Source: OCS155 cluster bacterium AG-426-D23 (GTDB lineage: Bacteria > Actinomycetota > Acidimicrobiia > Actinomarinales > Actinomarinaceae). From it: a stretch of 52,445 bases of DNA. The notes below the pieces were generated by a model. That model had not been told where the DNA came from. It saw only the letters and a list, made by a program, of their open reading frames with translations, and ran no database searches. This document shows positions 16,479 through 31,676 of the stretch, one piece after another; positions within the stretch are counted from its first letter, which is position 1, and every line of letters begins with the position of its first letter. The position numbers and the translations under genes were made by a program. The stretch is taken from contig QCNO01000002.1 of the NCBI GenBank assembly GCA_003213165.1, positions 138,868 to 191,312 on the forward strand, given 5' to 3'.

Positions 16479-16760
16479 ATGGCAAACGGAAAAAAGAGTG
16501 GTACAAGAAGATCCTCAAAATACGAGGCTCCTAAACAAAGAAGAATTACAAAGCAGCAAATAGAAAACGCAACTTACAAAGACGTTAAGTTACTTGAAAA
16601 ATTTATTTCTGATAGAGGAAAAATTAGATCCAGTTTGATAACAGGAATTACAAAACAAGAACAAGCAAAAGTTGCCCGTTTAATTAAAGTTGCAAGAGAG
16701 CTAGCTCTACTTCCCTATGTGACTACAAGTTCATACAAGCAAAGCTACAACAGAAGATGA
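16479..16760 (+). CDS. rpsR: 30S ribosomal protein S18
   Basis: 93 aa. The core [48 protein letters not shown] (residues about 32-81) is the S18 signature. The basic N-terminal extension [19 protein letters not shown] is longer than in E. coli. An AAGGAG site precedes the ATG. The stop overlaps rplI by 4 bp (ATGA). S18 lacks a CxxC zinc motif here. Confidence 0.96.
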
Positions 16761-17209
16761 AACTTATTCTCAACTCTGATGTAAAGTCCCTTGGAAGAAA
16801 GGGCGATGTAGTCGATGTAGCTAAAGGATATGCCAGAAATTATCTTTTGCCTAAAAATCTGGCAGTTGTTGCTAATTCAAGTAATCTTAAGTTCGCTGAA
16901 GCATTAAGAGAAAAAAGAGAGATACAAGCAGTAGCCAATAATGAATTAGCTGAATCAATCAAAACAGCGCTTGCTGATGCAAAAATCGTAATATCTCAAA
17001 ATACAACAGATGAGGGAACACTATACGCAGCAGTGAGTAATGAACAAATTGTTGATGCAATAGAAACATTCTCAGGATTTAGGTTAGAGGCTGAACAAAT
17101 CGATGTTGAAAACCAAGTCAAAGAAATAGGTCTTCATTCGATTTCTATTGTCTTGGGCCCAGATGCAAAATTTGAAACAACACTAGAAATCATACCTGAA
17201 ACAAAATAA
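16757..17209 (+). CDS. rplI: 50S ribosomal protein L9
   Basis: 150 aa. The N-domain [36 protein letters not shown] (residues 1-35) is the classic L9 signature, followed by a charged connecting helix and a C-terminal domain. It overlaps rpsR by 4 bp; its stop TAA overlaps the dnaB ATG by one base. It binds 23S rRNA at the L1 stalk base. Confidence 0.97.
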
Positions 17210-18570
17210 TGGTTGGTCCTGAAGCACTTTCATCAAGAGACACTCAGTCATTAGGCAAAGTTCCACCACACAGCCTTGAAGCCGAAGAGGCACTTTTAGG
17301 AAGCGCTTTATTATCCAGAGACGCAGTTTCGCGATTAATGGAAGAAGTCAGACCAGCTGACTTTTATAGCCCTTCAAATCAAACAGTTTATGAAGCTATG
17401 AAGGGTTTATTTGATACAGGAAAACCTATTGATACAGTTACTGTTTCTGAATTAATATTTAAAGATTCAAAAAACTCTAAATCAATCAATGCATCATATA
17501 TTGCACGATTAGTAGACAATGTTCCAAGTTCAGCAAACTTTGAAAGATACATTGAAATAGTTTTAGAGCATTCGCATAGAAGAAAGTTACTTAAAGCCAG
17601 TGGAAGAATCGAACTCTTGGCAATGGCTATGGACAAAGAAATTCACAGTGTACTTGATGAAGCTGAACAAACTATTTTTACTGCTTCCGATGATGCTATT
17701 GGAGACGGATTAGTAGGAGTTAATGATGTTTTAGATGGTGCTATCGAGAGAATCGAAGAGATTGAAAATCGTGGTACTGGCTTGTCGGGTCTTCCTACTT
17801 ATTTCTCCGATCTTGATTATTACCTATCTGGGCTTCAAGAAGGCAATCTAATAGTTCTTGCATCTAGACCCAGCATGGGTAAATCCTCACTCGGATTAAA
17901 TATTGGTACAAATGTCTCAAAAGAAGGTAAGGTTGTTGCATTTTTCTCTCTTGAAATGACAAAAGAGGAACTGGTACAAAGAGTTTTATTTTCTGAAGCA
18001 AAAGTTACTTCAGGAGATGCAAGAAAAGGACAGCTAGGACCAGAAAAATGGTCAAGAGTTGTAGAAGCTGCGTCAAAAGTCAACAGTCTTCCACTTTATT
18101 TTGACGATGCTCCAGTAATCACAGTTACTGACATTAGAGCTAAGTCGAGAAGACTCAAATCATCAAAAGGTTTAGATTTAATTGTTGTTGACTATCTTCA
18201 GCTCATGCAGAGTTCTTCTGGAGATAATAGGCAACAAGAAATTGCTGAAATCAGTAGAAATTTGAAAAACTTAGCACGTGAATTAAGAGTTCCAATACTT
18301 GCTCTTTCACAGTTAAATAGAGCAGCGGAAGCAAGAGAAGATAAAAGACCAAGGTTGGGAGACTTGCGTGAATCAGGCGCAATAGAGCAGGATGCAGATA
18401 TTGTGATGATGCTCTACAGGGATGATTATTACAATCCTGGAACTGAAATACCGGGCGTCGCTGAAGTCAACATTGTTAAGAATAGGTCTGGACAGACGGG
18501 CAAAGTAGAGCTTTTCTTCAGTAAAGAATTTACACAATTTAGTAATTACTCAAAACAAGAACAGCAGTAA
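17209..18570 (+). CDS. dnaB: Replicative DNA helicase
   Basis: 453 aa. The N-terminal domain has PPHSLEAEEALLGSALL; the C-terminal RecA-like domain has Walker A ASRPSMGKSSL, FFSLEMTKEEL, Walker B LIVVDYLQLM, ALSQLNRAAEAR and DLRESGAIEQDADIVMMLYRD. The hexamer unwinds DNA at the fork. No intein insertion is seen, unlike some actinobacterial dnaB genes. Last of the S6 operon, followed after 2 bp by an EamA-type gene. Confidence 0.97.
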   Translation: MVGPEALSSRDTQSLGKVPPHSLEAEEALLGSALLSRDAVSRLMEEVRPADFYSPSNQTVYEAMKGLFDTGKPIDTVTVSELIFKDSKNSKSINASYIARLVDNVPSSANFERYIEIVLEHSHRRKLLKASGRIELLAMAMDKEIHSVLDEAEQTIFTASDDAIGDGLVGVNDVLDGAIERIEEIENRGTGLSGLPTYFSDLDYYLSGLQEGNLIVLASRPSMGKSSLGLNIGTNVSKEGKVVAFFSLEMTKEELVQRVLFSEAKVTSGDARKGQLGPEKWSRVVEAASKVNSLPLYFDDAPVITVTDIRAKSRRLKSSKGLDLIVVDYLQLMQSSSGDNRQQEIAEISRNLKNLARELRVPILALSQLNRAAEAREDKRPRLGDLRESGAIEQDADIVMMLYRDDYYNPGTEIPGVAEVNIVKNRSGQTGKVELFFSKEFTQFSNYSKQEQQ

Positions 18571-18572
18571 GT

Positions 18573-19403
18573 TTGAACCTCAAACTTAGAGCCTATTTTC
18601 TAATAAGTTTTTTAGCCATTTCTTGGGGCACAATTCCATTAATTATTAGAACATCAAACATAAGCCCGTTATCGCTTGTAGGTATAAGAACATTTTTAGG
18701 ATCAATTTTTTTACTAATATTCGTTCTCAAAAAAAAAGGTATAACAAAAAAATTATTTAATTCTGGATTTGTATTGGGGCCTTTACTAGCAATTCACTGG
18801 TCAACTATGTTTAAGTCTATTGAGCTAAATAGTGTTGCCGTCGGTATTGGGCTAGTATTTTCATATCCAATTTTTGTAATATTCATCGAAATGTTAAGTG
18901 GTCAAAAGGTTGCAAAATATCAAATCCTAATCATTTTATCTGGATTTTTGGGTTTGATTTTTCTTCTAGATATAACAAGTATTTCCTCACCAATTGGTGT
19001 TGTTTATGGGATCATAAGCGCAATAACACTTGCGCTTTTAATAATCTACGGTTCTGAAAAGTCAAAAGAATACGGTGGCTTGAATGTTGCATTTATACAG
19101 GTAATTTTTGCTGCTATTTGTTTATCTCCATTTACAGCTTCGGGATTTGATTGGATGCTTGATAATTTATTAGTAAGTTTATTTTTGGGGTTCTTTCTAA
19201 CAGGAGTAGGTTTAGCTACTTATTGGTATGTTGTAAAAATTGTTACACCACTAGCAATTGGAACAATAACATATTTAGAGCCTGTAACCGGTGTGGTAAT
19301 AGGAGCTTTGATTTTAAATGAAACAATAAAGGGTTTTCAATATTTTGGTTTTGGATTGGTTATTGTTGCTGGAATAACCCAAGTCTATTTAGATTCTAAA
19401 TAG
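18573..19403 (+). CDS. EamA/RhaT-type drug/metabolite transporter
   Basis: 276 aa with about ten hydrophobic helices in two repeated halves, the EamA layout. FLAISWGTIPLIIRTSNISPLSLVGIRTFLG opens the first repeat (residues about 12-43) and YLEPVTGVVIGALILNETI marks the end of the second, the most conserved EamA segment. It begins with TTG at 18573, two bases after dnaB; the reading frame has no better start. Substrate unknown; relatives export amino acids or metabolites. Its 3' end overlaps a convergent gene by 19 bp. Confidence 0.85.
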   Translation: MNLKLRAYFLISFLAISWGTIPLIIRTSNISPLSLVGIRTFLGSIFLLIFVLKKKGITKKLFNSGFVLGPLLAIHWSTMFKSIELNSVAVGIGLVFSYPIFVIFIEMLSGQKVAKYQILIILSGFLGLIFLLDITSISSPIGVVYGIISAITLALLIIYGSEKSKEYGGLNVAFIQVIFAAICLSPFTASGFDWMLDNLLVSLFLGFFLTGVGLATYWYVVKIVTPLAIGTITYLEPVTGVVIGALILNETIKGFQYFGFGLVIVAGITQVYLDSK

Positions 19404-19843
19404 ACTTCAGGCTCGAGAGTCTGGTATTGGTCATAGTAAGAACTATGTAAAGCTATAAATTTATTAAAGCTCCATGATGCGTATTTATTAAAGTATGACT
19501 TGACCATTCCAATAGTTGCTTTCGAAGGTGTTGACAACCTTGTGTATTCTTCACGATCAAGGTGCTCAATTATCTGACCATCTGTGTTTATTTTCTTAAT
19601 AGCATTAGTTACATTATTAGTAGTTATCTTGTATTCCGAATTAATAAAATTTGTAAGTAACATTGAAAGCTTTGGCTCTTCAGGTGCTGTTGAATCTATA
19701 ATCAAGCACTTTGTATCGTCACTAAAATTTAATTGATTTGAGTCCTGTATTTCTCCTAAATTCTCGAATTTAAGTGACCCATTTTTGTCACTTAAATTAA
19801 ACAAAGTAATAGAAGTATTAATCTCAAGCACTAAAATTTGCAT
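19385..19843 (-). CDS. Conserved-looking hypothetical protein
   Basis: 152 aa, not recognised. It starts MQILVLEINTSITLFNL, which resembles the first beta strand of ASKHA-fold kinases (for example type III pantothenate kinase), but the later motifs of those enzymes are missing. The C-terminal half is rich in aromatic residues (YFNKYASWSFNKFIALHSSYYDQYQ). No signal peptide or membrane helix. It lies between the EamA gene (19-bp overlapping 3' ends) and ptsI, transcribed away from the PTS operon. Confidence 0.5.
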   Translation of the reverse strand: MQILVLEINTSITLFNLSDKNGSLKFENLGEIQDSNQLNFSDDTKCLIIDSTAPEEPKLSMLLTNFINSEYKITTNNVTNAIKKINTDGQIIEHLDREEYTRLSTPSKATIGMVKSYFNKYASWSFNKFIALHSSYYDQYQTLEPEVYLESK

Positions 19844-19918
19844 ATAAGTTAAAGTAATAATATTTTTGAGTAATAAGAAACTATATAAGTAAATTTTTAA
19901 ATAAGGTTTGATGTAAAT

Positions 19919-21550
19919 ATGACAAGTGTTAAGGGACTAGGTGCTTCATTAGGTGTTGCAATAGGTTCATCATTTGTTTATGAAAATGAGATAGATTTTG
20001 ATAAAGAAGCAATTCTCACTTATGTTGAGGCTAGCAAACAACTGATTGAAAAATTTAGTTCTCAAATCGTTGATTTCCGCTCAAAAGAAAGAAATGATGA
20101 AGCTGATATTTTAGATGCATACATATTGATCCTTCAAGATCCTGAAATAGTAGATCAACTAAATCAAAATTTAGATTCTTCAGTCGAAGAGGTTTATAGT
20201 ATTTTTACATCCACTGCAAGTGTATTTGAATCAATGGAAGATGTTTATTTTAAGCAACGAGCTGAAGACATACTTTCTGTAGGAAAACACCTTGTTTTCA
20301 ATATGCAAAATGTTGAAAGAGAAATTACTTTAAACGAAAACACTATTTTAATCGCTGAGGACTTAACACCAGCAGATACATCATCAATGGATTTGAGTAA
20401 AGTTAATGGAATTATATTAAAAGAAGGAGGGTTTACTTCGCATGCTGTTATCGTTGCAAAGAATTTGGGTATCCCTTGCGTGATCGGCGTAAAAAGTTTG
20501 CTCGACAATATTGCAGATGGCGAGTTAATGACAATTGACGGTGATACGGGGAATATTGTTATTTCTCCAAGTGAGAATCAGATATCTGAATTAAAAGAAA
20601 AACAAGGCAATATAACAAAGTTGATTGATAATTTTACTAAAAAAAAGTACGAAGCATTAGGAGTAGAATTCAGAGTTAATATTGGTTCTTTAGAGGAGAT
20701 TATTTCATTTAATCATCCTTTTTTAAACTCTATTGGCTTATTTAGGTCCGAGTTTATATATTTAGACAACACAACCATTCCAACACTTGAGGAACAAACA
20801 AGGGTTCTAGAACAAATAACTCAAAAATTCACTGGAACAATTGTCTATAGAACTCTTGATATTGGAGGTGACAAACAAGTAGATTATCTGAATTTACCTT
20901 CAGAAGAAAACCCCTTTCTTGGCGTAAGGGGTATTAGATTATTGTTGGATGATATTGAACTATTTGACACACAAGTAAAATCAATCTTAAATTCTAAATC
21001 ATTAGGAAGAGTAAAAATCATGTTTCCAATGATTTCTACTATAGAAGATTTTATAAAAGCAAAAGAGTTTGTTGCTAAAATAGCGAATAACTTAAATGTT
21101 GAAGTTCCTCCACTCGGTATCATGGTAGAGACACCCTCGTCAGCTTTGATTGCTGATAAGTTTTCAGAAATTGTTGATTTCATATCTATTGGCACCAACG
21201 ATTTGACGCAGTACATTATGGCTGCAGACCGTGGCAACAATAATTTAAGCCCTTACCAAGACCCACTTCATCCAGCTGTACTTAGGGCAATTTCTAATGT
21301 AATTGATTGTTGTAATGCAAATAATACCGAGGTGTCAGTATGTGGTGAAATGTCGTCAGATCCCGTCTCAGCATTTGTTTTATACATTTTAGGTTTAAAG
21401 ATATTTAGTATGGCACCTTCTGCAGCTCCTTTTGTATTTGATGCTTTAGATACACACTCAAAAATTAACAAACAAAAAATAAAAGATCAGATTTTACAAA
21501 AGAATAATGCTGACGAGGTTAGAACGATTATTCAAGAAATTTTAAGTTGA
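19919..21550 (+). CDS. ptsI: PTS enzyme I (phosphoenolpyruvate-protein phosphotransferase)
   Basis: 543 aa, slightly short of the usual 570. The phosphorylated His is His175 in EGGFTSHAVIVAKNLGIPCVIG; the PEP-binding domain shows GLFRSEFIYLD, YRTLDIGGDKQ, FLGVRGIRLLL, GIMVETPSSA, SIGTNDLTQYIMAADR and Cys475 in VCGEMSSDP. It moves phosphate from PEP to HPr. It is the first gene of the polyol-PTS cluster and its TGA overlaps the TTG start of the ispD-like gene. Having EI next to the permease suggests a dedicated PTS. Confidence 0.97.
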   Translation: MTSVKGLGASLGVAIGSSFVYENEIDFDKEAILTYVEASKQLIEKFSSQIVDFRSKERNDEADILDAYILILQDPEIVDQLNQNLDSSVEEVYSIFTSTASVFESMEDVYFKQRAEDILSVGKHLVFNMQNVEREITLNENTILIAEDLTPADTSSMDLSKVNGIILKEGGFTSHAVIVAKNLGIPCVIGVKSLLDNIADGELMTIDGDTGNIVISPSENQISELKEKQGNITKLIDNFTKKKYEALGVEFRVNIGSLEEIISFNHPFLNSIGLFRSEFIYLDNTTIPTLEEQTRVLEQITQKFTGTIVYRTLDIGGDKQVDYLNLPSEENPFLGVRGIRLLLDDIELFDTQVKSILNSKSLGRVKIMFPMISTIEDFIKAKEFVAKIANNLNVEVPPLGIMVETPSSALIADKFSEIVDFISIGTNDLTQYIMAADRGNNNLSPYQDPLHPAVLRAISNVIDCCNANNTEVSVCGEMSSDPVSAFVLYILGLKIFSMAPSAAPFVFDALDTHSKINKQKIKDQILQKNNADEVRTIIQEILS

Positions 21551-22227
21551 AAGTACATTCTATTCTTCTAGCTGGTGGCTCTAGTGACAGATTTAATAAT
21601 GAAGAAAACAAAGTTTATTTTCCAATTGGCGGCAAGCCAGCACTTTCCTGGCCACTAGAGACCCTAGATAATTCCGATAAAGTTGACTCAATAATATTGG
21701 TTGTAAGGGATGAAGACTGGGAAAAAACTAATAATGTAATTCAGCTAGTTAATCCCAAAAAATTATCTGGTGTAACAATTGGTGGGAACACTAGACATGA
21801 AAGTGAATATCAAGGACTTCTTTATCTAAAAGAAAGACCAGACATAAATGAAGAAGACCTAATTTTAATTCATGATGGCGCAAGACCATTGTTACCTAGT
21901 TATTTGTTAGATGAGCTTATTGATGTTGCAAAAAAATATGGAGCTTCAGCTCCTGGGTATAACTCAGATAATCTTATGAAAAAACAGGAATTTAACAAAG
22001 AAGAAATCCAAGAAACAATCGTAGAGATACAAACTCCTCAGATATTTCCAGCTTCAGAACTTTGGAAATCCTATGAATTAGCAAAATTAGATAAATGGCA
22101 AGCAGTAGATACAACAGAATGCGTATCAAAATATTCTGAGCTTGAGGCAGTAGTAATTCCTGGTGATCCAAGAAACATGAAGGTAACTTTTATAGAAGAT
22201 ATCTTTAAACTTGAGGAAATGATTTAA
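21547..22227 (+). CDS. ispD: IspD-type cytidylyltransferase (CDP-methylerythritol synthase or pentitol-P relative)
   Basis: 226 aa, typical IspD length. It opens with the nucleotide loop LLAGGSSDRF and a conserved Lys in ENKVYFPIGGKPAL, then LIHDGARPLLP, IQTPQIFP, DTTECVS and GDPRNMKVTFIEDI, the MEP-binding C-terminal block (family: NxKVTxPEDL). IspD joins CTP and 2-C-methylerythritol 4-phosphate (MEP) in isoprenoid synthesis; close relatives (TarI) use ribitol 5-phosphate. Start is TTG overlapping ptsI by 4 bp, so it is translationally coupled to a PTS gene, which is unusual. Confidence 0.8.
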   Translation: MKVHSILLAGGSSDRFNNEENKVYFPIGGKPALSWPLETLDNSDKVDSIILVVRDEDWEKTNNVIQLVNPKKLSGVTIGGNTRHESEYQGLLYLKERPDINEEDLILIHDGARPLLPSYLLDELIDVAKKYGASAPGYNSDNLMKKQEFNKEEIQETIVEIQTPQIFPASELWKSYELAKLDKWQAVDTTECVSKYSELEAVVIPGDPRNMKVTFIEDIFKLEEMI

Positions 22228-22319
22228 AAAAACCATAAAAACAGGCATTTCTAAATCAAAAATGGTTACATTATTTTTAAGATTTCGGGTTTTTACCAAA
22301 ATTCGAAGAATCATTTATG

Positions 22320-22325
22320 TAGAAT
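22320..22325 (+). promoter_or_regulatory. Possible internal promoter before gutM
   Basis: The 129-bp gap between ispD and gutM contains TATG followed by TAGAAT (22320-22325), a possible -10 region about 31 nt before the gutM start, and an AAGGA ribosome binding site at 22346-22350. No matching -35 is evident. It could separate expression of ptsI-ispD from the permease genes. Confidence 0.3.
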
Positions 22326-22356
22326 TAAAGTAACTATTTAAGTTGAAGGATGGAAG

Positions 22357-22770
22357 TTGTTATCTAGTTCACCATATGCACTTGGTGTCATATTTGTAAC
22401 ACTCGCACTTATGTGGGTTTTACAGATGTATCTTGCTAAAAAACAGGCTACTGGTTTCTTAGATGCAGTAAACAGCATTAAAGGACCTGGCTTGGAAGTC
22501 GCTATAGGTGTAAATCAACCTAAATGGGGGAGAAAAAAAATCTATCTAGCAATCTCTGCTGATGTAAATTCAACCATTGTTAACGGTCTTACTCTGGAGG
22601 GGGTAACTACTTTTGCAAAAAGTAAAAAAGTTTCGTTATTTAATGGCAAAACATTAAATGAAATTGCTAACTCAGAAAACAAAGAACCTATCTGGGATGC
22701 TGCCAAAATGGCAGCTGACACTTTGATAAAAAAACTTCAAAGTAAAGCAGATAGTAATTCGACAAATTAA
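22357..22770 (+). CDS. gutM: GutM/SrlM-family glucitol operon activator-like membrane protein
   Basis: 137 aa. One N-terminal membrane helix (LGVIFVTLALMWVLQMYLA) precedes a conserved domain: GPGLEVAIGVNQPKWGRKKIYLAISAD, VNGLTLEGVTTFAKSKKV and a tail. This is the order seen in E. coli GutM (GRFKPRVVVAIALD...LIMKGLTVFAR). GutM is called an activator but is membrane-anchored, so an accessory role in the PTS is possible. The start is TTG at 22357 with AAGGA 6 nt upstream; the upstream ATG is out of frame. It precedes srlA by 18 bp. Confidence 0.85.
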   Translation: MLSSSPYALGVIFVTLALMWVLQMYLAKKQATGFLDAVNSIKGPGLEVAIGVNQPKWGRKKIYLAISADVNSTIVNGLTLEGVTTFAKSKKVSLFNGKTLNEIANSENKEPIWDAAKMAADTLIKKLQSKADSNSTN

Positions 22771-22788
22771 TTATAAGGAGGGGGAGAT

Positions 22789-23331
22789 ATGGATGCTTTG
22801 GTAGCAGGCGCAGAAGCCTTTATCCAAGTATTTAGAACCGCTGCTGATGTATTTGTTGGTTTCACAACTGGAATTATTCCAATTGTGGTTGTGTTCTTGA
22901 CTGCAGTTAACGCTTTAGTCAAGTTCATCGGTGAGGAAAGAGTTGAGGGCTTTGCAAAATGGGCTTCTCAAGAAGGGGCACTTTACATGCCTGTTCGTTA
23001 TACTCTTTTACCGTTTGTAGCTGTATTTATGCTTACTAACCCAGTTTGCTATACATTCGGTACCTTTTTGCCTGAAAAACATAAACCAGCATTTTATGAT
23101 TCAGCAGTAAGCTTTGTTCATCCCATTACAGGAATTTTTCCACATGCGAATGGTGGAGAGTTATTTGTATGGTTAGGGATTGCAGCAGGTGTAGAAATAG
23201 TTGCACCAGATATGGTAACTGCTTTAGCAGTTAGATATCTTCTTGCTGGCCTTGTAGTCATATTAATTAGAGGTATCGTAACTGATATTATCTATAACAT
23301 TATGACGTCAAGAAGGGCAGGTGTTGAATAA
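22789..23331 (+). CDS. srlA: PTS glucitol/sorbitol-family permease EIIC subunit
   Basis: 180 aa, matching SrlA length. GIIPIVVVFLTAVNALVKFIG, MPVRYTLLPFVAVFMLTNPVCYTFGTFLPEKHKPA (residues 64-98) and FVHPITGIFPHANGGELFVWLGIAAG are EIIC-Gut hallmarks. A very strong AAGGAGG ribosome site precedes the ATG. It forms the membrane channel with the next gene product. The family substrate is a polyol, classically glucitol; specificity cannot be read from sequence. The stop and the next ATG overlap (TAATG). Confidence 0.93.
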   Translation: MDALVAGAEAFIQVFRTAADVFVGFTTGIIPIVVVFLTAVNALVKFIGEERVEGFAKWASQEGALYMPVRYTLLPFVAVFMLTNPVCYTFGTFLPEKHKPAFYDSAVSFVHPITGIFPHANGGELFVWLGIAAGVEIVAPDMVTALAVRYLLAGLVVILIRGIVTDIIYNIMTSRRAGVE

Positions 23332-23855
23332 TGCAAGCTTTAATAGAGAGAATTGGTCGATCAGTTGGTGGCGTGGTTGGAACATTGTTCCAAGCAGGTC
23401 GAGATGCTGTTGACCTATGTTTAAAAACAATAATTCCATTTATGGCATTCGTTACTTTTGTCATTGGTTTAATTTTAGAAACCGGTGTTGGTGACGCTAT
23501 TGCAAATGGTATTAAAGGTTTTGCAAGCAGTTTAGGCGGATTAATGATAGTTTGTATCATATGCGCAATACCTGTTTTATCACCACTACTAGGACCTGGT
23601 GCAGTAATTGCTCAGATCGTTGGTGTATTAATTGGTACTGAAATTGGACGTGGAAACATTGATGTTTCAATGGCGCTTCCAGCTTTATTTGCAATTAACC
23701 CACAGGTTGGTTGTGACTTCGTACCGGTTGGTCTGGCTCTTGGTGAAGCAGAACCGGAGACAGTTACGGTTGGTGTTCCAGCAGTTCTAACAAGTAGAAT
23801 GATTACTGGACCAATCTCAGTCGTTGTTGGTTATTTATTTGCACTAGGTTTGTAA
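23331..23855 (+). CDS. srlE: PTS glucitol-family EIIC2 subunit (C-terminal half of SrlE as a separate gene)
   Basis: 174 aa, equivalent to the membrane half of E. coli SrlE. It has hydrophobic helices and the motifs FVTFVIGLILETGVGDAIA, LSPLLGPGAVIAQIVGVLIGTEIGRG, and the strongly conserved QVGCDFVPVGLALGEAEPET. In E. coli EIIB and this domain are one protein; here they are two genes with EIIB downstream, separated by a hairpin. It starts at ATG overlapping the srlA stop. Confidence 0.9.
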   Translation: MQALIERIGRSVGGVVGTLFQAGRDAVDLCLKTIIPFMAFVTFVIGLILETGVGDAIANGIKGFASSLGGLMIVCIICAIPVLSPLLGPGAVIAQIVGVLIGTEIGRGNIDVSMALPALFAINPQVGCDFVPVGLALGEAEPETVTVGVPAVLTSRMITGPISVVVGYLFALGL

Positions 23856-23881
23856 AGACATAACTTAACAATTTTTAAATT

Positions 23882-23913
23882 TGTAACGCTCTGACTAAAA
23901 TCAGAGCGTTACA
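23882..23913 (+). terminator. 13-bp perfect hairpin with T-run inside the PTS operon (attenuator/terminator-like)
   Basis: TGTAACGCTCTGA (23882-23894) pairs perfectly with TCAGAGCGTTACA (23901-23913) around a 6-base loop CTAAAA, followed by TATTTTT (23914-23920). It sits in the 77-bp gap between the EIIC2 and EIIB genes, the largest gap inside the gutM-lipoyl gene run. It could terminate part of the transcripts or stabilise the upstream mRNA, so that membrane subunits and EIIB are made in different amounts. An AGAGGAG ribosome site follows directly. Confidence 0.75.
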
Positions 23914-23932
23914 TATTTTTAGAGGAGAAACT

Positions 23933-24310
23933 ATGGCAGATTATAAAAAAGTAAAAGTAGAAGCAGGGCCAAGTGGTTGGGGAGGCCCTTTAGAAATACA
24001 ACCAACTGATGAAAAAAAATACATTGTTTGTGTTACCGGTGGAGGAATTCATCCAGTTGCTCAAAAAATTGCTGATTTAACTGGGGCGGAAGCCTTTGAT
24101 GGTTTTAAATCATCACCAGAGGGAAGCTTTAAAGCAATGGCTTGTGCAGTAATTGATTGTGGAGGAACTGCGAGAATCGGTGTATATCCTATGAAGGGCG
24201 TACCAACGATTGATATTCATGACACTACACCAGCAGGTCCACTCGCCCAATTTATTAAAGAAGAGAACTTTGTTTCTGGAGTTTCTGAGGATCAAGTTAC
24301 TGAAGCTTAA
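23933..24310 (+). CDS. srlE: PTS glucitol-family EIIB subunit (N-terminal half of SrlE as a separate gene)
   Basis: 125 aa. It matches the N-terminal domain of E. coli SrlE: KVEAGPSGWGGPLEIQP, GGGIHPVAQKIADLTGAEAFDGFK, AVIDCGGTARIGVYPMKGVPTIDIH and GPLAQFI...VSGVSEDQVT. Cys76 in VIDCGG is the expected phosphocysteine; Cys71 is nearby. It passes phosphate from EIIA to the sugar. The stop overlaps the EIIA start (TAATG). Confidence 0.92.
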   Translation: MADYKKVKVEAGPSGWGGPLEIQPTDEKKYIVCVTGGGIHPVAQKIADLTGAEAFDGFKSSPEGSFKAMACAVIDCGGTARIGVYPMKGVPTIDIHDTTPAGPLAQFIKEENFVSGVSEDQVTEA

Positions 24311-24669
24311 TGCAAATTTATTCTTCAGAAATAGTAAGAATAGGCGAACAAGCTAATTTATTTTTAGATGAAGGAATTGTAGTTTTTTTCGGTGACAATG
24401 CACCAGAGGAACTTCAAGATTTTGCAGTCATACATAAACTAGAGCAAATCTCTGGTGAAATTGTAGTTGGAACAAAAATAAGTCTTTCAGACTCTAATTT
24501 AGAAGTTGTTTCTGTAGGGCCTGTAGCTAATGAAAACTTTAAAAATTTGGGTCACTTAGTTTTAAAACTCGATTCTTCAACTGAAGAAGCACAGCTTGGA
24601 GACGTCAGGTGTACATTTGATAACAAACCGAATATAAAAATTGGGGATAATTTAAGGATAAACAATTGA
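24310..24669 (+). CDS. srlB: PTS glucitol-family EIIA subunit
   Basis: 119 aa, same length class as SrlB. IVRIGEQANLFL, an FFGDNAPEELQDFAVIH block with the active His42 (E. coli His43), GTKISLSD, VSVGPVANENFKNLGHLVLKLD are the family landmarks. It receives phosphate from HPr and gives it to EIIB Cys76. Translation is coupled upstream by TAATG and downstream by TTGA overlap with the oxidoreductase gene. Confidence 0.93.
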   Translation: MQIYSSEIVRIGEQANLFLDEGIVVFFGDNAPEELQDFAVIHKLEQISGEIVVGTKISLSDSNLEVVSVGPVANENFKNLGHLVLKLDSSTEEAQLGDVRCTFDNKPNIKIGDNLRINN

Positions 24670-25919
24670 ACTATACAGAACTATTAATTGCTCGTGAAAA
24701 AGACTTAGGTAGACCAGTAAGAGTTGGGTTGGCTGGTGCTGGCCAAATGGGCTCCGGTCTTGCTGCACAAATTGGGAAAATACCAGGAATGAGCCTTGTC
24801 GCTTGCGCTGATATAGATATTGGAAGAGCTGAGAATGCATTACGTCTTGCTGGAGTTGAGTATGTAAAACACAACAAGGAGGCGTCAAAGTCTATCGAAA
24901 GCGGACAAGGTGGTGTAGTAGATAATGCATCTGCTCTTGCAGAACTACCAATAGATATTGTATTTGAAGCAACTGGTGTGCCATGGGTTGGTGCGGAGGT
25001 TGCTGATGCCTGTATTGAAGCACAAAAACATATACTCATGTTAAATGTAGAGACAGATGTCACAATAGGGATGTATTTAGCAAACAAAGCAAATAAAAAT
25101 AATGTAGTTTATAGTGTTGCAAATGGTGATGAACCAGTTGCATGTAAAGAGTTATATGACTTCTCAGTGGATTTAGGTTTTGAGATAGTGTGTGTTGGAA
25201 AAGGAAAAAACAACCCACTAGATCAAACTGCAAACCCTGATACCTGTTTAGAAAAAGCTACTAAGAAGAATATGAATCCAAAAATGCTAGCAAGTTTTGA
25301 AGATGGTTCAAAAACTATGATTGAAATGACTGCTTTGGCAAATGCAATAAATTTACCACCAGATCAAATCGGAATGAATGGACCAGTAAGTTCTGTAGAG
25401 GAATTGAACAAAGTTCTTATCCCTCAAGCTGATGGGGGTGTTCTAAGTGAATCTGGAAGAGTTGACTATGCATTTGGACCAGCACCTGGAGTATTTTCTA
25501 TTGTGAAATCGGATAACCCAACTGTTATTGAAGAAATGGAGTATTTGTCTATGGGAGAAGGTCCTTATTACACTCTTTACAGGCCTTATCATCTAGCTTC
25601 AATTGAAGCACCTAGAAGTATTGGGATGGCTATCATAAATAATGAACCCGGCTTACAACCAAAATCATGGATTGCAGAAGTTATTGGTCATGCAAAAAAA
25701 GACCTAAAAAAAGGTGAAAAGATTGATGGAATTGGAGGATTTGCCACATACGGTGTAACTTACCCTGTTGCAGATACAGATAATTTAATTCCACTTGGCT
25801 TATTAGAAGGTGCAACTGTTATTAAAGAACTAAAAAAAGGAGAACCAATAACAAAAGATTCAGTTGAACTTCCAGAAAATTTAATTAATAGCTTAAGAAA
25901 ACTTCAAGAAGCTAGTTAA
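24666..25919 (+). CDS. COG4091 homoserine-dehydrogenase-like oxidoreductase with C-terminal SAF domain (DXP reductoisomerase-like, DRL family)
   Basis: 417 aa. A Rossmann loop GLAGAGQMGSG (GAGQMG 24-29) follows a short leader; then ATGVPWVGAEVA, LNVETDVTIGMYLA, GKGKNNPLD, GSKTMIEMTALANA, YYTLYRPYHLASIEAP and a C-terminal SAF-like domain (about 343-410, with IPLGLLEGATVI). From memory, these blocks closely parallel Brucella DRL, an alternative enzyme converting 1-deoxyxylulose 5-phosphate to methylerythritol 4-phosphate. The same COG also includes proteins of unknown, possibly polyol-related function. Start is TTG overlapping EIIA. Its place behind a polyol PTS and with an ispD-like gene supports a polyol-phosphate substrate. 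Confidence 0.8.
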   Translation: MNYTELLIAREKDLGRPVRVGLAGAGQMGSGLAAQIGKIPGMSLVACADIDIGRAENALRLAGVEYVKHNKEASKSIESGQGGVVDNASALAELPIDIVFEATGVPWVGAEVADACIEAQKHILMLNVETDVTIGMYLANKANKNNVVYSVANGDEPVACKELYDFSVDLGFEIVCVGKGKNNPLDQTANPDTCLEKATKKNMNPKMLASFEDGSKTMIEMTALANAINLPPDQIGMNGPVSSVEELNKVLIPQADGGVLSESGRVDYAFGPAPGVFSIVKSDNPTVIEEMEYLSMGEGPYYTLYRPYHLASIEAPRSIGMAIINNEPGLQPKSWIAEVIGHAKKDLKKGEKIDGIGGFATYGVTYPVADTDNLIPLGLLEGATVIKELKKGEPITKDSVELPENLINSLRKLQEAS

Positions 25920-25929
25920 ATAGTCTTTA

Positions 25930-26889
25930 ATGACACTTAGTACAACCACTCAATTAGAACTTCATCGAATGATGATGCTGATTAGGTTGTTTGAGGAAGC
26001 ACTAGAAGAAATGTTTTCAAGAGGCTTGCTCCATGGGACCATGCATCTATCTATAGGTCAAGAAGCTACAGCAGCTGGTGCGTGTTTAGCTCTTCAAAAA
26101 GATGACTTAATTACTTCAACACACAGAGGGCATGGACATTGTCTTGCAAAAGGAGCCGAACCTTACAAGATGTTTGCAGAGTTACTTGGAAGAGAAGATG
26201 GATATTGTAGAGGCCGTGGTGGCTCAATGCATATTGCTGATTTGTCAAATGGCAATCTTGGTGCCAATGGAATTGTCGCTGGCAGTTTAACAATTTCTGT
26301 TGGGGCAGCTTTATCATTCCAAATGCAAAAAAAAGACAATATTATCCTTTGTTTCTTTGGAGATGGAGCGGTTAATGAAGGCTCATTTCATGAGGCTTTA
26401 AATTTAGCATCGCTATGGAGTCTTCCAGTGTTATTTTTATGTGAGAATAATCAGTATGGAATGTCAATGGCAACTGACAAAGCGGTTGCTGGCGACTCAA
26501 TTGCATCCAGAGGAAATTCTTATGGAATAGAGAGTATTCAAATTGATGGTAATGATGTCGAGGCTGTTTATGAAAATGTATTAAATTTTAAGAATAAAAT
26601 TTTATCGTCTGGGGGCCCAAAATTTATTGAAGCAGTTACATATCGCTATAGGGGACACTCAAAATCTGATAGAAACTTATACAGAACAAGTGATGAAATT
26701 GAATATTGGAAAGAAGAAAAAGACCCTATAAAAAGATACATTGGAAAATTAATTGAGTCTGGAATTAGTGAAGATCAATTAAAAGATATTGATACAGATA
26801 TTAAGGATTTAATCAGAAAATCGGTTAAGCAGGCATTAGATTCTCCGCTCAGTCCGATAACAAATTTAGAAGAGGATTCGTATGCCTGA
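25930..26889 (+). CDS. Thiamine-diphosphate 2-oxo/acetoin dehydrogenase E1 alpha subunit
   Basis: 319 aa, AcoA/PdhA size. FSRGLLHGTMHLSIGQEATAAG, THRGHGHCLAKG, GREDGYCRGRGGSMHIAD and the ThDP motif GDGAVNEGSFHEALNLASLWSLPVLFLCENNQYGMS (GDG to NN, residues about 140-175) are clear, as is YRYRGHSKSD. The heterotetrameric type is like acetoin or pyruvate dehydrogenase, not the homodimeric AceE common in actinobacteria. It decarboxylates or cleaves a methyl-ketone substrate on ThDP and reductively acylates a lipoyl group. It overlaps the beta gene by 8 bp. Confidence 0.93.
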   Translation: MTLSTTTQLELHRMMMLIRLFEEALEEMFSRGLLHGTMHLSIGQEATAAGACLALQKDDLITSTHRGHGHCLAKGAEPYKMFAELLGREDGYCRGRGGSMHIADLSNGNLGANGIVAGSLTISVGAALSFQMQKKDNIILCFFGDGAVNEGSFHEALNLASLWSLPVLFLCENNQYGMSMATDKAVAGDSIASRGNSYGIESIQIDGNDVEAVYENVLNFKNKILSSGGPKFIEAVTYRYRGHSKSDRNLYRTSDEIEYWKEEKDPIKRYIGKLIESGISEDQLKDIDTDIKDLIRKSVKQALDSPLSPITNLEEDSYA

Positions 26890-27865
26890 GTTAACAACTG
26901 GACAGGCACTAAATAAAGCCCTTAGTTTGATATTAGAACAAAACCCTACAGCGTTTATTGCTGGTGAAGATATTGGAATTTACGGCGGTGCCTTTGGAGT
27001 TACCGATGGACTCCTAGCTCAATATGGTGAGGAGAGAATTAAAGACACTCCAATTGCTGAAGATGTCATCGCAGGTTTAGCTGTTGGAGCATCAATGACA
27101 GGCGGAAAGCCTATTGTTGAAATGCAGTTTAGTGATTTTATTGTTAATGCAATGGATCCAATTGTTAATCAAGCTGCAAAGCTTCATTTTATGTATGGCG
27201 GATCGGTAAATGTACCAATAATCGTCAGAGGCGCTAGTGGAGCTGGGACAGGGGCCGCAGCACAACATAGCCAGTCACTCGAATCATGGTTTTGCCATGT
27301 TCCAGGATTAAAAGTAGTCACACCTTCAAATCCTCAGAATGCTTATGATCTATTGCTACATTCTTTTGTGGATCCTAACCCAGTTATTTTTATGGAACAT
27401 AAGTTAATATATAAAATCAAAGACAATGTAGAACTTAGTGATATTCCCGAGGAATCAAGCATGTTGGGTAAAGCAAATCTTGTTAAAGAAGGAAATGACA
27501 TGACAATAGTTGCCTACTCAAATATGGTAAATGTTGCAAAAGAAGCATTAGCTGCTGAGGAATTACAAAATTGTTCAATTGAACTAATTGACCTTCAGAC
27601 AGTTTCACCAATAGATTACGATACTATTAAAAATTCACTCAAAAAAACAAAAAGACTTTTAGTTTGTCAGGAAGCTCCTTCCAATAGTTCTGTAGGAACA
27701 ACCGTAATTTCAAAAATTGTTGAAAGTGAGTTATTTCATGAACTTGAGGTTGCTCCAAAGCTGGTCTCAGGATTACATTCACCCATGCCCTCTGCAAAAC
27801 ATCTCGAATTAAATGTTATTCCCCAAGCTGAAGACATTACTAATGCAGTCAAAAGTATGTTATAA
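26882..27865 (+). CDS. Thiamine-diphosphate 2-oxo/acetoin dehydrogenase E1 beta subunit
   Basis: 327 aa. The pattern ALNKALSLILEQ, GEDIGIYGGAFGVTDGLLAQYGEERIKDTPIAE, GGKPIVEMQFSDFI, GAGTGAAAQHSQSLESWF and a C-terminal transketolase-C domain (ELIDLQTVSPIDYDTI) is that of E1 beta. It completes the ThDP site with the alpha subunit. The gene overlaps alpha by 8 bp and is followed after 8 bp by a lipoyl-domain gene. Confidence 0.93.
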   Translation: MPELTTGQALNKALSLILEQNPTAFIAGEDIGIYGGAFGVTDGLLAQYGEERIKDTPIAEDVIAGLAVGASMTGGKPIVEMQFSDFIVNAMDPIVNQAAKLHFMYGGSVNVPIIVRGASGAGTGAAAQHSQSLESWFCHVPGLKVVTPSNPQNAYDLLLHSFVDPNPVIFMEHKLIYKIKDNVELSDIPEESSMLGKANLVKEGNDMTIVAYSNMVNVAKEALAAEELQNCSIELIDLQTVSPIDYDTIKNSLKKTKRLLVCQEAPSNSSVGTTVISKIVESELFHELEVAPKLVSGLHSPMPSAKHLELNVIPQAEDITNAVKSML

Positions 27866-27873
27866 ATATATAT

Positions 27874-28146
27874 ATGGCAAAAGAAAAAATTCAATTACCG
27901 GCAATGTCTGATCAAATGACAGAAGCTGAAATTTTAAGTTGGAAAGTTGACGTTGGTTCAAAGATTGAAAAGGGTGCCACGATATGTGAAATTTCTACTG
28001 ACAAAGTTGATATGGATCTAGAATCACCTTACTCCGGAGAAATTACTGACTTAGCATGTGAAGAGGGTGATATAGTAAATGTTGGTGACACAATAGCTGA
28101 AATAGAAACTGAAGAAGACAGTCTTTTAGGTTCAATATTCGATTAA
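27874..28146 (+). CDS. Stand-alone lipoyl-domain protein (E2-like without catalytic domain)
   Basis: 90 aa consisting of one biotinyl/lipoyl domain: IQLPAMSDQMTEAEILSWKVDVG at the start, the lipoylation site Lys44 in STDKVDMDLESPYSG, and VGDTIAEIETEED near the end. Acyl-carrier domains of E2 enzymes normally continue into an E3-binding and a large acyltransferase domain; here a stop follows at once. The TMEA-like DQMTEAEI form is the lipoyl, not biotin (AMKM), type. It should take the acyl group from the adjacent E1; the E2 core and E3 must be elsewhere if needed. Confidence 0.88.
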   Translation: MAKEKIQLPAMSDQMTEAEILSWKVDVGSKIEKGATICEISTDKVDMDLESPYSGEITDLACEEGDIVNVGDTIAEIETEEDSLLGSIFD

Positions 28147-28530
28147 TCAGCAGTTGCTGTAGGTAGTAATCTTAATGTATTCCTGAGTTTCTTCCTTAAC
28201 AAAAACTCCCGATTTATGCACACAAGAAGAATTAAGCGCAACACTTTCTTTTACTATTAAATCGCAATTTACATTTAAATTTTCATAAACTTTCTTGTAA
28301 TAATTTAAACAATCATTAATTTTTTTCTCGGCGTTATTTTTATTTTGTTGAGATAACGTAATCACGATGTTTTCATTTGTGATTTCAATATTTTCTGGAT
28401 CAATATAGAAAGTTTCTTCATATAGGTTATCAAGTGTATTGCTTGTTTCAGTAGTTAAAAAACCTGATGCACTTGAGGAAATAATTGCTAAAAAACCTGC
28501 CCCCAGAAGGATATAAATTAAATTTTTCAT
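28147..28530 (-). CDS. Hypothetical secreted protein with four mature cysteines
   Basis: 127 aa. An N-terminal hydrophobic segment (LIYILLGAGFLAIISSSASGF) is a signal peptide or anchor. The mature part is charged and has Cys in NDCLNYY, NVNCDLI, SSCVHK and at the C-terminus, perhaps two disulfides. No family recognised. It is convergent with the lipoyl gene and divergent from ptsH, so it interrupts the PTS gene run. Confidence 0.6.
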   Translation of the reverse strand: MKNLIYILLGAGFLAIISSSASGFLTTETSNTLDNLYEETFYIDPENIEITNENIVITLSQQNKNNAEKKINDCLNYYKKVYENLNVNCDLIVKESVALNSSCVHKSGVFVKEETQEYIKITTYSNC

Positions 28531-28536
28531 AAGTGA

Positions 28537-28542
28537 ATTATA
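28537..28542 (-). promoter_or_regulatory. -10 box for leaderless secreted-protein gene
   Basis: A perfect TATAAT on the minus strand ends 6 nt before the ATG at 28530. On the other strand TAATAT at 28610-28615 lies 8 nt before the ptsH ATG. Confidence 0.5.
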
Positions 28543-28623
28543 AAATGTCTTAATTCATCATAACTCTATATTCTGACAAATAGTGATTAAGAATTTATCG
28601 AATTATGACTAATATATTAAATC

Positions 28624-28950
28624 ATGGCAGTAGAAAAAAAATTTAGAATACTAATTTATCCTGGTTTGCATACTCGCCCGGGTGCTAAATTTGTAGAGTT
28701 ATGTAACAAGTTTGAAAGCGATATCGAAATTCTTTTTAACGATAAGGTTGCAAATGGCAAAAGTATTATCAACATAATGACCATGGCCGCGCCACAAAAT
28801 GGGGAAATAACGATAAAAGTTAATGGTGTTGATGAAGAAATATTAATTAATGAATTAACAGATTGGCATGTTGAGGCTCACAAGTCTAAGGAAGATTTTG
28901 ATAATTCACCAGACAAGCATGAGTTGCTGAAAGCTTTTGAAATAATTTAA
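28624..28950 (+). CDS. ptsH: PTS phosphocarrier HPr-family protein
   Basis: 108 aa, longer than the 85-90 aa norm. The active His16 is in GLHTRPGAKFVELCNKF and the conserved regulatory serine is Ser47 in ANGKSIINIMTMAA. A C-terminal tail of about 20 residues (HKSKEDFDNSPDKHELLKAFEII) is extra. It carries phosphate from EI to EIIA. It is separated from the main PTS operon by one opposite-strand gene and probably has its own leaderless promoter. Confidence 0.93.
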   Translation: MAVEKKFRILIYPGLHTRPGAKFVELCNKFESDIEILFNDKVANGKSIINIMTMAAPQNGEITIKVNGVDEEILINELTDWHVEAHKSKEDFDNSPDKHELLKAFEII

Positions 28951-30426
28951 CTAGGGGATATCTTTATCTGTTCTGTTAACCACAATAAGGCTTCCTAGAT
29001 CTCCAGCTAAGACCAAACGGCCATCCTTTGCAATTGTGATATCACGAATTCTTTCACCTATGTATATTTCACCTACATGAATGATGCTCGTTCCTCCGGA
29101 GTCAAGCTTCAAAGTATAAATTGTCATATCTTTAAGACTTGTTATAAAGATGAAGTCGTTCCATCTTGGAAATTCACTACCTTTGTAAATTGTAAGTTCA
29201 CTTATTCCAATAGATGGTGTGAAGAAGTATATTGGCTCTTCATATTTTGCATCGTGATCAAGTTCATAGATGTTTTCTAATCCGTAAGTAAAACCATATG
29301 CACTGGAAGGCCAACCATAATTTCTGCCTTGAAGAACAATGTTTAGTTCATCTCCTCCAAAAGGTCCATGTTCAGTGGATAAAATTGTCTCTCCATTAAT
29401 AACTAAACCTTGTGGGTTTCTATGCCCGGAAGAATAAATATCTGAATTCCAACCTCTGTCTAAAAACAAAATTTTTCCCAAATGTGACTCTTCACCAATT
29501 TCTAATTTAAAATCTTCAGGTAATTTGAAATCGCCCACTGTTAAAAGATATCCATCATTAAACTCTTTTATCCTTCCTCCAGCGTGATGAGAATTAAAAT
29601 TTTCATAACAGTCATCTATGTTATACACCCATGAAAAATCTAAATTTGCTGTGTTGAACTCTGCACTAAGAACACCAAGAGTAAAACAATTCTTCGTAAA
29701 ATCTTTTTTAATTGCAGTTATCAAAATTAAATTATTTTTTTCATCAAAAGAACTATCTCTTAAACCCATCCTTGATGAATAATCAGAACCCTTAACAATC
29801 GATGTATATTCTTGATCTTGAATTATCTGGTTTAAATTTGTTTTAACTTCTTGAACTGTACCATCGACCATACTCATTTTCACTATATTCCCCATACCAC
29901 CAAACATAAAAATCTCATCATGAATTGATTCAACAAAAAATGAGGGAAGCAATCCTGAAGTGTATTTTGTGAAGTATTCTGTAAAGTCGATTTTTGTTAC
30001 ATCTGAGTTATGAAAATCACCTTGAACATTGAACTCTATACTAAATTTACTGGGCTCGATATTCTTTTGCAGACTGAGAATATCTACTGGTAAAGGTATA
30101 ATTCCAAGAACAGCCATCTTATCGACAACATTCCTATCAAGTGGATTCATAACTCTGCCACCTTCTTCTATTCCATTTTTTAAGTCTTCTTTAGAAAATA
30201 CAATCAACACTCCATCAGGATCAATTTCTGAATCAACCCTTAGAGCAACAAAATTGCCATCATTGCTTTTGCCAATATATTCTTGCCAATTGGAGTTTGA
30301 AATTTCAATTTTATTAGTGGTAGAGCCAACTATGTCATTTAACGAACTTACACTGATTGGAGTAGACGAATTACTGCAGAAAGAAATTAAAAAAAATACT
30401 GTTAAAACTAGTCTTATAGACTTCAC
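28951..30426 (-). CDS. Secreted sGDH/YliI-like beta-propeller dehydrogenase, lipoprotein
   Basis: 491 aa. A lipoprotein signal MKSIRLVLTVFFLISFC ends at Cys17. The C-terminal two thirds follow the glucose/sorbosone dehydrogenase family: HHAGGRIKEF, IYSSGHRNPQGLVI, STEHGPFGGDELNIV, GRNYGWP and a final blade. Members use PQQ and oxidise aldoses outside the cell; whether the PQQ and Ca ligands are all kept is unclear, and several family members are PQQ-free. The start is GTG at 30426, overlapping the TAG stop of the upstream gene by one base. Confidence 0.85.
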   Translation of the reverse strand: MKSIRLVLTVFFLISFCSNSSTPISVSSLNDIVGSTTNKIEISNSNWQEYIGKSNDGNFVALRVDSEIDPDGVLIVFSKEDLKNGIEEGGRVMNPLDRNVVDKMAVLGIIPLPVDILSLQKNIEPSKFSIEFNVQGDFHNSDVTKIDFTEYFTKYTSGLLPSFFVESIHDEIFMFGGMGNIVKMSMVDGTVQEVKTNLNQIIQDQEYTSIVKGSDYSSRMGLRDSSFDEKNNLILITAIKKDFTKNCFTLGVLSAEFNTANLDFSWVYNIDDCYENFNSHHAGGRIKEFNDGYLLTVGDFKLPEDFKLEIGEESHLGKILFLDRGWNSDIYSSGHRNPQGLVINGETILSTEHGPFGGDELNIVLQGRNYGWPSSAYGFTYGLENIYELDHDAKYEEPIYFFTPSIGISELTIYKGSEFPRWNDFIFITSLKDMTIYTLKLDSGGTSIIHVGEIYIGERIRDITIAKDGRLVLAGDLGSLIVVNRTDKDIP

Positions 30427-31676
30427 TAGTTTATTTTAGATATCTTTTTTACTATTAATGAATCGATTCTTCTGTTATCTACTGCAGACACGGTAAGTTC
30501 TAATCCATGAACTGTAATCTTCTCATTAACAGTTGGAAGCTTTTCAGAATAACTTAAATACAAGCCTCCCACGGTAGCAACATCTGATTCTTGTGATTCC
30601 AAACCAAAAAATTCTTCAAAATCATCTATATCTGTTCTACCTTCAACAACCCATTGCCCGGGCCCCAATCTTTTAATGCCCTTAAATCTTTCGTCATGTT
30701 CGTCAGGCAGATCACCAACAAACTCTGATAGTACATCTTTAATAGTAATTACTCCCTCAATGCCACCATTTTCATCAATTACACAGGCAAAACTTGCTTG
30801 ATTCTCTCTTAATATATTCAATGCTGAAAGAACAGTTGTGTATTCTGGGAGATAGATTGCATCTTTTACTAAATTTTCAACTTCGACTGAAGTTGCTTTG
30901 CTATTTAAATTAAATAAATCTTTTACGTAAACAATTCCAAAAGTGTCATCTAATGATTCTGATCTAGAAATAGGCATCCTAGAAATTCGCTTTTCATCAA
31001 CAATCTTTTTCACATCTTCCATGTCAACAGGAATTGAAAGAAACAATACATCAACTCTTGGTGTCATAATTTCCTTTATGGGTCTGTCTGAAAAATCAAG
31101 AAGAGAATCAATAATTTCTCTTTCTGCTGGTAGAATCTGGCCTTCAATCTCCCCGAGTGCGGTCAAGGCTTGTATATCCGCCTCCGTAACTTCTGCATCA
31201 TCTTCATCGGGAGCCTTAACAAACTTCATGATCAGATTAGTTATACCTTCTGTAAACGGAGCAAATATTTTTGATAAAACTTCAACTAAAAAAGTTGTTC
31301 TCGATAAAAATGATATCGGCAGCTTCGTCGCCAGAGTTTTTGGAGTAATATCTCCAAAAATTAAAACTATAACCGTAGTAAAAACTGTTGCAATCGCACT
31401 ACCTGCGCTTTCCCCAAAACGCCTAACAAAAATAAGTGTTGCCACTGAAGCCATCAATATATTTACAAAGTTATTACCAACTAATATTCCACCAATAGTT
31501 TTTTCAATATTTTCTTTAGCTCTTTTGATTCTTCTGTTCTTTTTGTTTTCATCCAACTGGTGTATTTTCTGGATTGGAATAGAAGTTATTGCTGTCTCAG
31601 AGCCTGATAGCATGCCCGACAGAATTAGGCAAAGAAAAAATACTATGTATAAAACGATGTCAAAGTTAATACTCAA
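30426..31676 (-). CDS. CorC/HlyC-type membrane protein with DUF21 (CNNM), CBS pair and CorC_HlyC domains
   Basis: 416 aa. Residues about 1-190 form the CNNM domain (SGSETAITSIP, VGNNFVNILMAS, FGDITPKTLA), then two CBS domains with PIKEIMTPRVDVLFL and GGIEGVITIKDVLSEFVGD, then a CorC_HlyC domain (VEGRTDIDDFEEFFG). Proteins of this family transport or sense Mg2+/Co2+; older names call them hemolysins. Coupled by a TAGTG overlap to the downstream sGDH-like gene. Confidence 0.92.
   Translation of the reverse strand: MSINFDIVLYIVFFLCLILSGMLSGSETAITSIPIQKIHQLDENKKNRRIKRAKENIEKTIGGILVGNNFVNILMASVATLIFVRRFGESAGSAIATVFTTVIVLIFGDITPKTLATKLPISFLSRTTFLVEVLSKIFAPFTEGITNLIMKFVKAPDEDDAEVTEADIQALTALGEIEGQILPAEREIIDSLLDFSDRPIKEIMTPRVDVLFLSIPVDMEDVKKIVDEKRISRMPISRSESLDDTFGIVYVKDLFNLNSKATSVEVENLVKDAIYLPEYTTVLSALNILRENQASFACVIDENGGIEGVITIKDVLSEFVGDLPDEHDERFKGIKRLGPGQWVVEGRTDIDDFEEFFGLESQESDVATVGGLYLSYSEKLPTVNEKITVHGLELTVSAVDNRRIDSLIVKKISKIN

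Follow-up and report, generated by a model that had tools for sequence, protein, structure and literature searches.

The window, i.e., the whole 52,445-bp stretch of DNA analyzed here, belongs to a genome of 0.96 Mb (86% complete) whose nearest named relatives are the Candidatus Actinomarina/OCS155 single-cell genomes (98% DRL identity). Bacteria of the Ca. Actinomarina lineage are streamlined and inhabit the surface waters of the sea. The locus of interest comprises the following genes.

19919–21550, plus strand: ptsI, PTS enzyme I, 5′ of ispD with a 4-bp overlap (PF02896, 283 bits)
21547–22227, plus strand: ispD-like cytidylyltransferase, the DRL partner (PF01128, 112 bits; TIGR00453, 138 bits, below the 181-bit cut-off)
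22357–22770, plus strand: gutM-like gene (PF06923, 58 bits)
22789–23331, plus strand: srlA, PTS glucitol-type EIIC (NF049923, 206 bits, above cut-off)
23331–23855, plus strand: C-terminal (EIIC) half of srlE as a gene of its own (NF049924, profile positions 158–329, 263 bits)
23933–24310, plus strand: N-terminal (EIIB) half of srlE as a gene of its own, order swapped (NF049924, profile positions 1–118, 160 bits)
24310–24669, plus strand: srlB, PTS glucitol-type EIIA, glucitol/sorbitol family (PF03829, 101 bits; TIGR00849, 87 bits)
24666–25919, plus strand: DRL/DXR-II oxidoreductase, 417 aa (COG4091, DRL_cat plus SAF; assigned by PF21135, the Brucella DRL match, residues and model)
25930–26889, plus strand: E1 alpha, TPP-dependent acyl-lipoate type (TIGR03182, 350 bits, below the 394-bit cut-off; groups with DRL-linked E1s)
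26882–27865, plus strand: E1 beta (NF006667, 322 bits, above cut-off; groups with DRL-linked E1s)
27874–28146, plus strand: stand-alone lipoyl-domain protein, 90 aa (PF00364, 75 bits)
28624–28950, plus strand: HPr phosphocarrier (TIGR01003, 74 bits, above cut-off)

The EIIC, EIIB and EIIA domains of the glucitol PTS family are all present, so that the cluster shares every domain of the glucitol/sorbitol PTS (SrlA-SrlE-SrlB, GutM), and srlA passes the equivalog cut-off. Unlike the known system, the window has SrlE split into two genes of swapped order, and no sorbitol-6-phosphate dehydrogenase gene is recognized beside the cluster; DRL stands in its place. The same split and swap (23331–23855 and 23933–24310 in the window) are seen in the Acidimicrobiia genomes G069 and G072 (loci L088 and L089), which suggests a common origin for the cassette. 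The two-subunit TPP-dependent E1 with a lipoyl partner resembles that of acetoin dehydrogenase and pyruvate dehydrogenase. However, the E1 of Actinomarina is sister to the E1s of other DRL-linked loci (100/100), apart from acetoin-cluster E1s and also from Actinomarina's own fused E1, and the lipoyl protein is too short for an E2 catalytic domain.

The DRL reading frame begins with TTG, which overlaps the stop codon of the EIIA gene (aacaaTTGA), as the initial annotation had reported. An AAGGA-like ribosome site lies about 8 nt 5′ of this start. The product matches DRL_cat (PF21135) with 211 bits against a cut-off of 27, and SAF (PF08666) with 32 bits. Its alignment with Brucella DRL (PDB 3upl and 3upy) scores 351 bits (E = 6e-104), far above chance. 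The four sequence blocks singled out in the initial annotation as matching that enzyme, GKGKNNPLD, TDVTIGMYLA, YRPYHLASIE and GLLEGATVI, all lie within this unbroken alignment. The domain layout is that of DXR-II, with DRL_cat and SAF behind a Rossmann NAD(P) domain. Modeling, which had been proposed as a check, agrees: the AlphaFold2 model (mean pLDDT 94) matches 3upl over the full length with TM-scores of 0.96 and 0.91 at 42% identity, and the substrate-binding residues are kept.

In the scheme of Carretero-Paulet et al. (2013; PMC3847144), the family comprises DXR-II, whose members include those proven by complementation, and two further groups, DLO1 and DLO2, of which the representatives put to the test failed. 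Actinomarina is absent from their table of family members. Equivalents of K191, K193, T229, R320, Y322, G121, E174 and F178 (Brucella numbering) are all kept in the window DRL, where K179, K181, T217, R306, Y308 and G109 are the counterparts of the first six, the substrate or dimer residues. At H250, which most DXR-II conserve, window-type DRL has N238. In contrast, the sampled DLO1-like proteins carry N191, I229 and mostly T320. In a COG4091 phylogeny, a check that had been proposed, the window protein groups with the DXR-II of Brucella, NGR234 and Listeria rather than with DLO1 or DLO2, with only moderate single-clade support (SH-aLRT 81). Under a richer model the long DLO2 branch moves beside Actinomarina, but the data do not reject a tree in which DXR-II is constrained to one clade (p-AU 0.32). 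The DLO labels in this tree rest on genus names and residues. The assignment is therefore decided by the residues and the fold, to which the tree adds no more than support. By family, fold and residues, the window ORF is a DXR-II (DRL); its catalysis, direction and substrate are inferred.

The absence of canonical dxr, on which the initial annotation had made its interpretation depend, is borne out. No dxr was found in any of 42 genomes of the order, including the window genome and eight genomes at least 90% complete. These are single-cell and metagenome assemblies of one genus. In the other Acidimicrobiia sampled, dxr occurs in 121 of 126 genomes, and in two other families of the class it sits between cdsA and rseP. 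This site is empty in Actinomarina: tsf-pyrH-frr-cdsA-rseP-ispG-proS is contiguous in 13 assemblies, with nothing between cdsA and rseP. DRL is present as a single copy in 33 of the 42 genomes, and in all eight of those at least 90% complete. Brucella abortus likewise has a DRL and no canonical DXR (the class A pattern of PMC3847144).

Canonical dxs is missing too, with no match above cut-off in any of the 42 genomes. A divergent DXS was considered and rejected, as the weak dxs matches of 637–675 aa are, by reading, transketolase and fused E1 proteins; the window E1 genes are also among the weak matches. Roughly half of the other sampled Acidimicrobiia have no strong dxs match (threshold 1e-60), mostly while possessing dxr, which suggests a class-wide unknown source of DXP. 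The lower MEP pathway seems to be in use, since ispF, ispG and ispH are found in 40, 35 and 30 of the 42 genomes of the order. The usual gene order in actinobacteria is carD-ispD-ispF. The carD-ispF junction was examined in nine assemblies that hold it, and in none of them does an ispD stand between the two genes.

MEP pathways without Dxs have been noted earlier, and for most such species the mechanism is unknown (PMC10663253). Actinomarina resembles them in having lower MEP genes without Dxs, and differs in also being without canonical Dxr and in having ispD away from its usual neighbor ispF. The one natural DXS bypass named in that paper needs a RuBisCO-like protein. Such a protein (PF00016) was found in none of the 42 genomes, and the MTA-isoprenoid shunt is thereby ruled out as the DXP source. 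Since DXS is absent from all 42 genomes, DXP, the substrate of DRL, has no known origin in Actinomarina. The initial annotation had proposed a DRL-dependent isoprenoid maker. This is supported by the dxr absence, the residues and the fold, the activity being inferred, but the pathway is less ordinary than had been supposed.

The gene company of DRL was compared at 20 Actinomarina loci, which fall into two types sharing one chromosomal position. In type A, that of the window, the order is ptsI-ispD-gutM-srlA-srlE(C)-srlE(B)-srlB-DRL-E1a-E1b-lipoyl. In type B it is ptsI-ispD-DRL-yjbQ, with genes read as a mannitol-type PTS further on; gut PTS and E1 genes are absent beside ispD-DRL at these loci, and two of them (L049 and L052) have lost all PTS genes while retaining ispD-DRL. 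ispD adjoins DRL or shares its gene run at all 20 loci, including the two without any PTS gene. The overlap with EIIA is found in some type A loci only, and at several type B loci the gene that DRL overlaps is ispD. EIIA as a universal DRL partner is ruled out by the type B loci, which are without gut PTS. The stable partner of DRL in Actinomarina is ispD. Compared with Brucella abortus DRL, the window protein is 42% identical in the structure alignment and has N in place of H250, its lineage has no DXS, it is partnered with ispD, and in the window locus type it is joined by a gut PTS and an E1.

The ispD and DRL of the two types are only 33–45% identical, whereas the flanking dnaB is 82–94% identical. 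A tree of ispD plus DRL splits cleanly into A and B; the flanking-gene tree interleaves them, with at least three changes, and type A as one clade in the flanking genes is rejected (p-AU 1e-94). Judged from these sequence comparisons, Actinomarina lineages have swapped the entire ispD-DRL cassette on more than one occasion. The exchanged island spans the region from rplI-dnaB to HlyC/CorC, window positions 16757–31676. Every genome with DRL holds exactly one copy despite the two alleles, as would be expected for an essential function under such swaps.

The window IspD matches the domain family PF01128 and misses the TIGR00453 equivalog cut-off (138 of 181 bits). In the residue alignment it keeps the equivalents of R20, K27, D106, R109 and K213 and is without those of T140 and R157, which we take to be MEP-binding residues in E. 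coli IspD; its substrate may therefore differ. At type B loci L039–L052, yjbQ (TIGR00149) lies directly 3′ of DRL, e.g., at L039:8931–9455. YjbQ was considered as a DXP-related enzyme, and no evidence for this was found. At L059:846–2492, next to transketolase and E2, lies an ORF of 548 aa that resembles, by reading only, a fused lipoate transferase/lipoyl synthase.

Outside Actinomarina, DXR-II loci were found by DRL similarity alone and counted where enough flank was available. A gut PTS is adjacent at 21 of 31 such loci and E1 genes at 17; either is present at 26, e.g., in Paenibacillus, Shimazuella and Thermosediminibacter. None of ten DLO or other loci has gut PTS or E1 genes nearby (p = 3e-6), a value that overstates independence because close relatives share synteny by descent. 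The Listeria locus has the PTS only, whereas Terrarubrum has PTS, E1 and E2. On Agrobacterium and Rhizobium plasmids an ABC sugar transporter and a sugar kinase replace the PTS near DRL-E1a-E1b-E2-E3. In two Acidimicrobiia, the first gene of an ispD-regulator-E1a-E1b-E2 run is an ispD homologue, and gutM-srlABE-DRL lies close by on the opposite strand. A 3.5-kb contig labeled as a Bacteroidetes MAG (L113) carries a DRL with 77% identity and is probably a misbinned Actinomarina contig. The proposal that the EIIA coupling ties DRL to the transported substrate needs amending. The overlap itself is limited to one locus type and the conserved partner is ispD, but the gut PTS link recurs in other phyla, so it is still reasonable to connect DRL with what the PTS transports.

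Given the single-copy DRL, the lack of dxr in 42 genomes and the pairing with ispD, DRL is very probably the sole MEP-forming enzyme of Ca. Actinomarina, though no activity has been shown. It is proposed that DRL and IspD took over two isoprenoid steps, canonical dxr being gone and ispD missing from its place beside ispF, and that in type A the ispD-DRL pair is combined with a module for transport and cleavage. The gut PTS would import a polyol, most likely 2-C-methyl-D-erythritol, phosphorylating it to MEP; this substrate is inferred from gene company alone. MEP could then pass through IspD to isoprenoids, or be oxidized to DXP by DRL running in reverse. DXP is a methyl acyloin like acetoin, and the E1 alpha/beta-lipoyl unit may cleave it to acetyl-CoA and glyceraldehyde 3-phosphate. 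With 2-C-methyl-D-erythritol as the substrate, a phosphorylating transporter, an oxidoisomerase and an acyl-lipoate E1 would together form a complete route, and because the module is tied to ispD in Actinomarina, MEP can feed isoprenoids. Type B would obtain DXP from an unknown source. Methylerythritol import with DXP cleavage in the window locus type is an inference that we hold only tentatively.

A sorbitol PTS is reported to transport 2-C-methyl-D-erythritol in Salmonella, to judge from the title of Testa et al. (2004) as cited in PMC3994034. The latter paper ascribes the phosphorylation to an ATP-dependent kinase; phosphorylation of methylerythritol by the PTS is therefore our inference. 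No report of DRL-linked methylerythritol catabolism was found in literature searches, which does not exclude that one exists.

Other readings have to be weighed against DRL as the MEP-forming enzyme. The window genome is only 86% complete, and dxr and dxs might have been missed in incomplete single-cell and metagenome assemblies. This is scarcely credible, as each gene is missing from 42 of 42 genomes, eight of them at least 90% complete, 13 assemblies span the dxr site and have no gene there, and the same searches were positive in control genomes. Nor is it at all probable that the window ORF encodes an oxidoreductase of the DLO type acting in unrelated sugar metabolism, with isoprenoids made via an unrecognized enzyme. 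DXR-II, DLO1 and DLO2 do belong to one family, and the clade support is moderate, but the substrate-contact residues are those of DXR-II and differ in DLO-like proteins, Brucella DRL is matched at 42% identity and a TM-score of 0.96, and this reading sits poorly with the ispD pairing and the loss of dxr.

The remaining alternatives concern the source and fate of DXP. The E1 alpha/beta pair could be the missing DXP synthase of type A, making DXP from pyruvate and glyceraldehyde 3-phosphate for DRL and IspD. E1 adjoins DRL in one gene run with ispD, there is neither DXS nor a RuBisCO-like protein for the MTA shunt, and E. coli survives without DXS through mutations in aceE, the pyruvate dehydrogenase E1 (PMC3424233). 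However, the lipoyl carrier beside E1, and E2/E3 in relatives, suit cleavage to acetyl-CoA rather than synthesis, and type B loci have no E1 while their genomes also are without DXS; we regard this role as unlikely. Alternatively, DRL in type A might be only catabolic: the PTS would import methylerythritol as MEP for IspD, DRL and E1 would burn the surplus, and no MEP would be made from DXP. The absence of DXS from all 42 genomes and the conservation of gut PTS, DRL and E1 as a module in other bacteria favor this, as do Finegoldia and Anaerococcus, which have DXR-II and no other MEP or MVA gene (Carretero-Paulet et al., PMC3847144). Against it, type B keeps ispD-DRL without adjacent gut PTS or E1, at two loci without any PTS gene, so that DRL appears to be needed when no polyol import is visible. 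A purely catabolic DRL is, in our estimation, distinctly unlikely.

A wider reading can also be put forward. DXR-II genes would mark an undescribed bacterial 2-C-methyl-D-erythritol pathway, with uptake to MEP by a PTS, or by an ABC transporter and a kinase, oxidation and rearrangement to DXP by DRL, and cleavage of the acetoin dehydrogenase type. In Ca. Actinomarina this pathway would have been rewired with ispD after the loss of dxs and dxr, replacing the first isoprenoid steps. We offer this as possible, on balance short of probable. The recurring linkage of DXR-II with gut PTS and E1 would make functional sense of the patchy and puzzling occurrence of DXR-II, which extends to organisms that have no further MEP gene. 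A lineage whose MEP pathway runs without DXS and without canonical DXR allows the Dxs-less question (PMC10663253) to be tested directly with named genes. The gene cluster suggests that the isoprenoid precursor may come from seawater. If the imported polyol is 2-C-methyl-D-erythritol, Actinomarina would consume a compound made by plants and also formed from isoprene in air. Two genomes of genus g75 (G141 and G167; loci L090–L093) showed neither dxr nor a strong dxs match; both carry a pair of DXR-II genes, one of them immediately ahead of ptsI.
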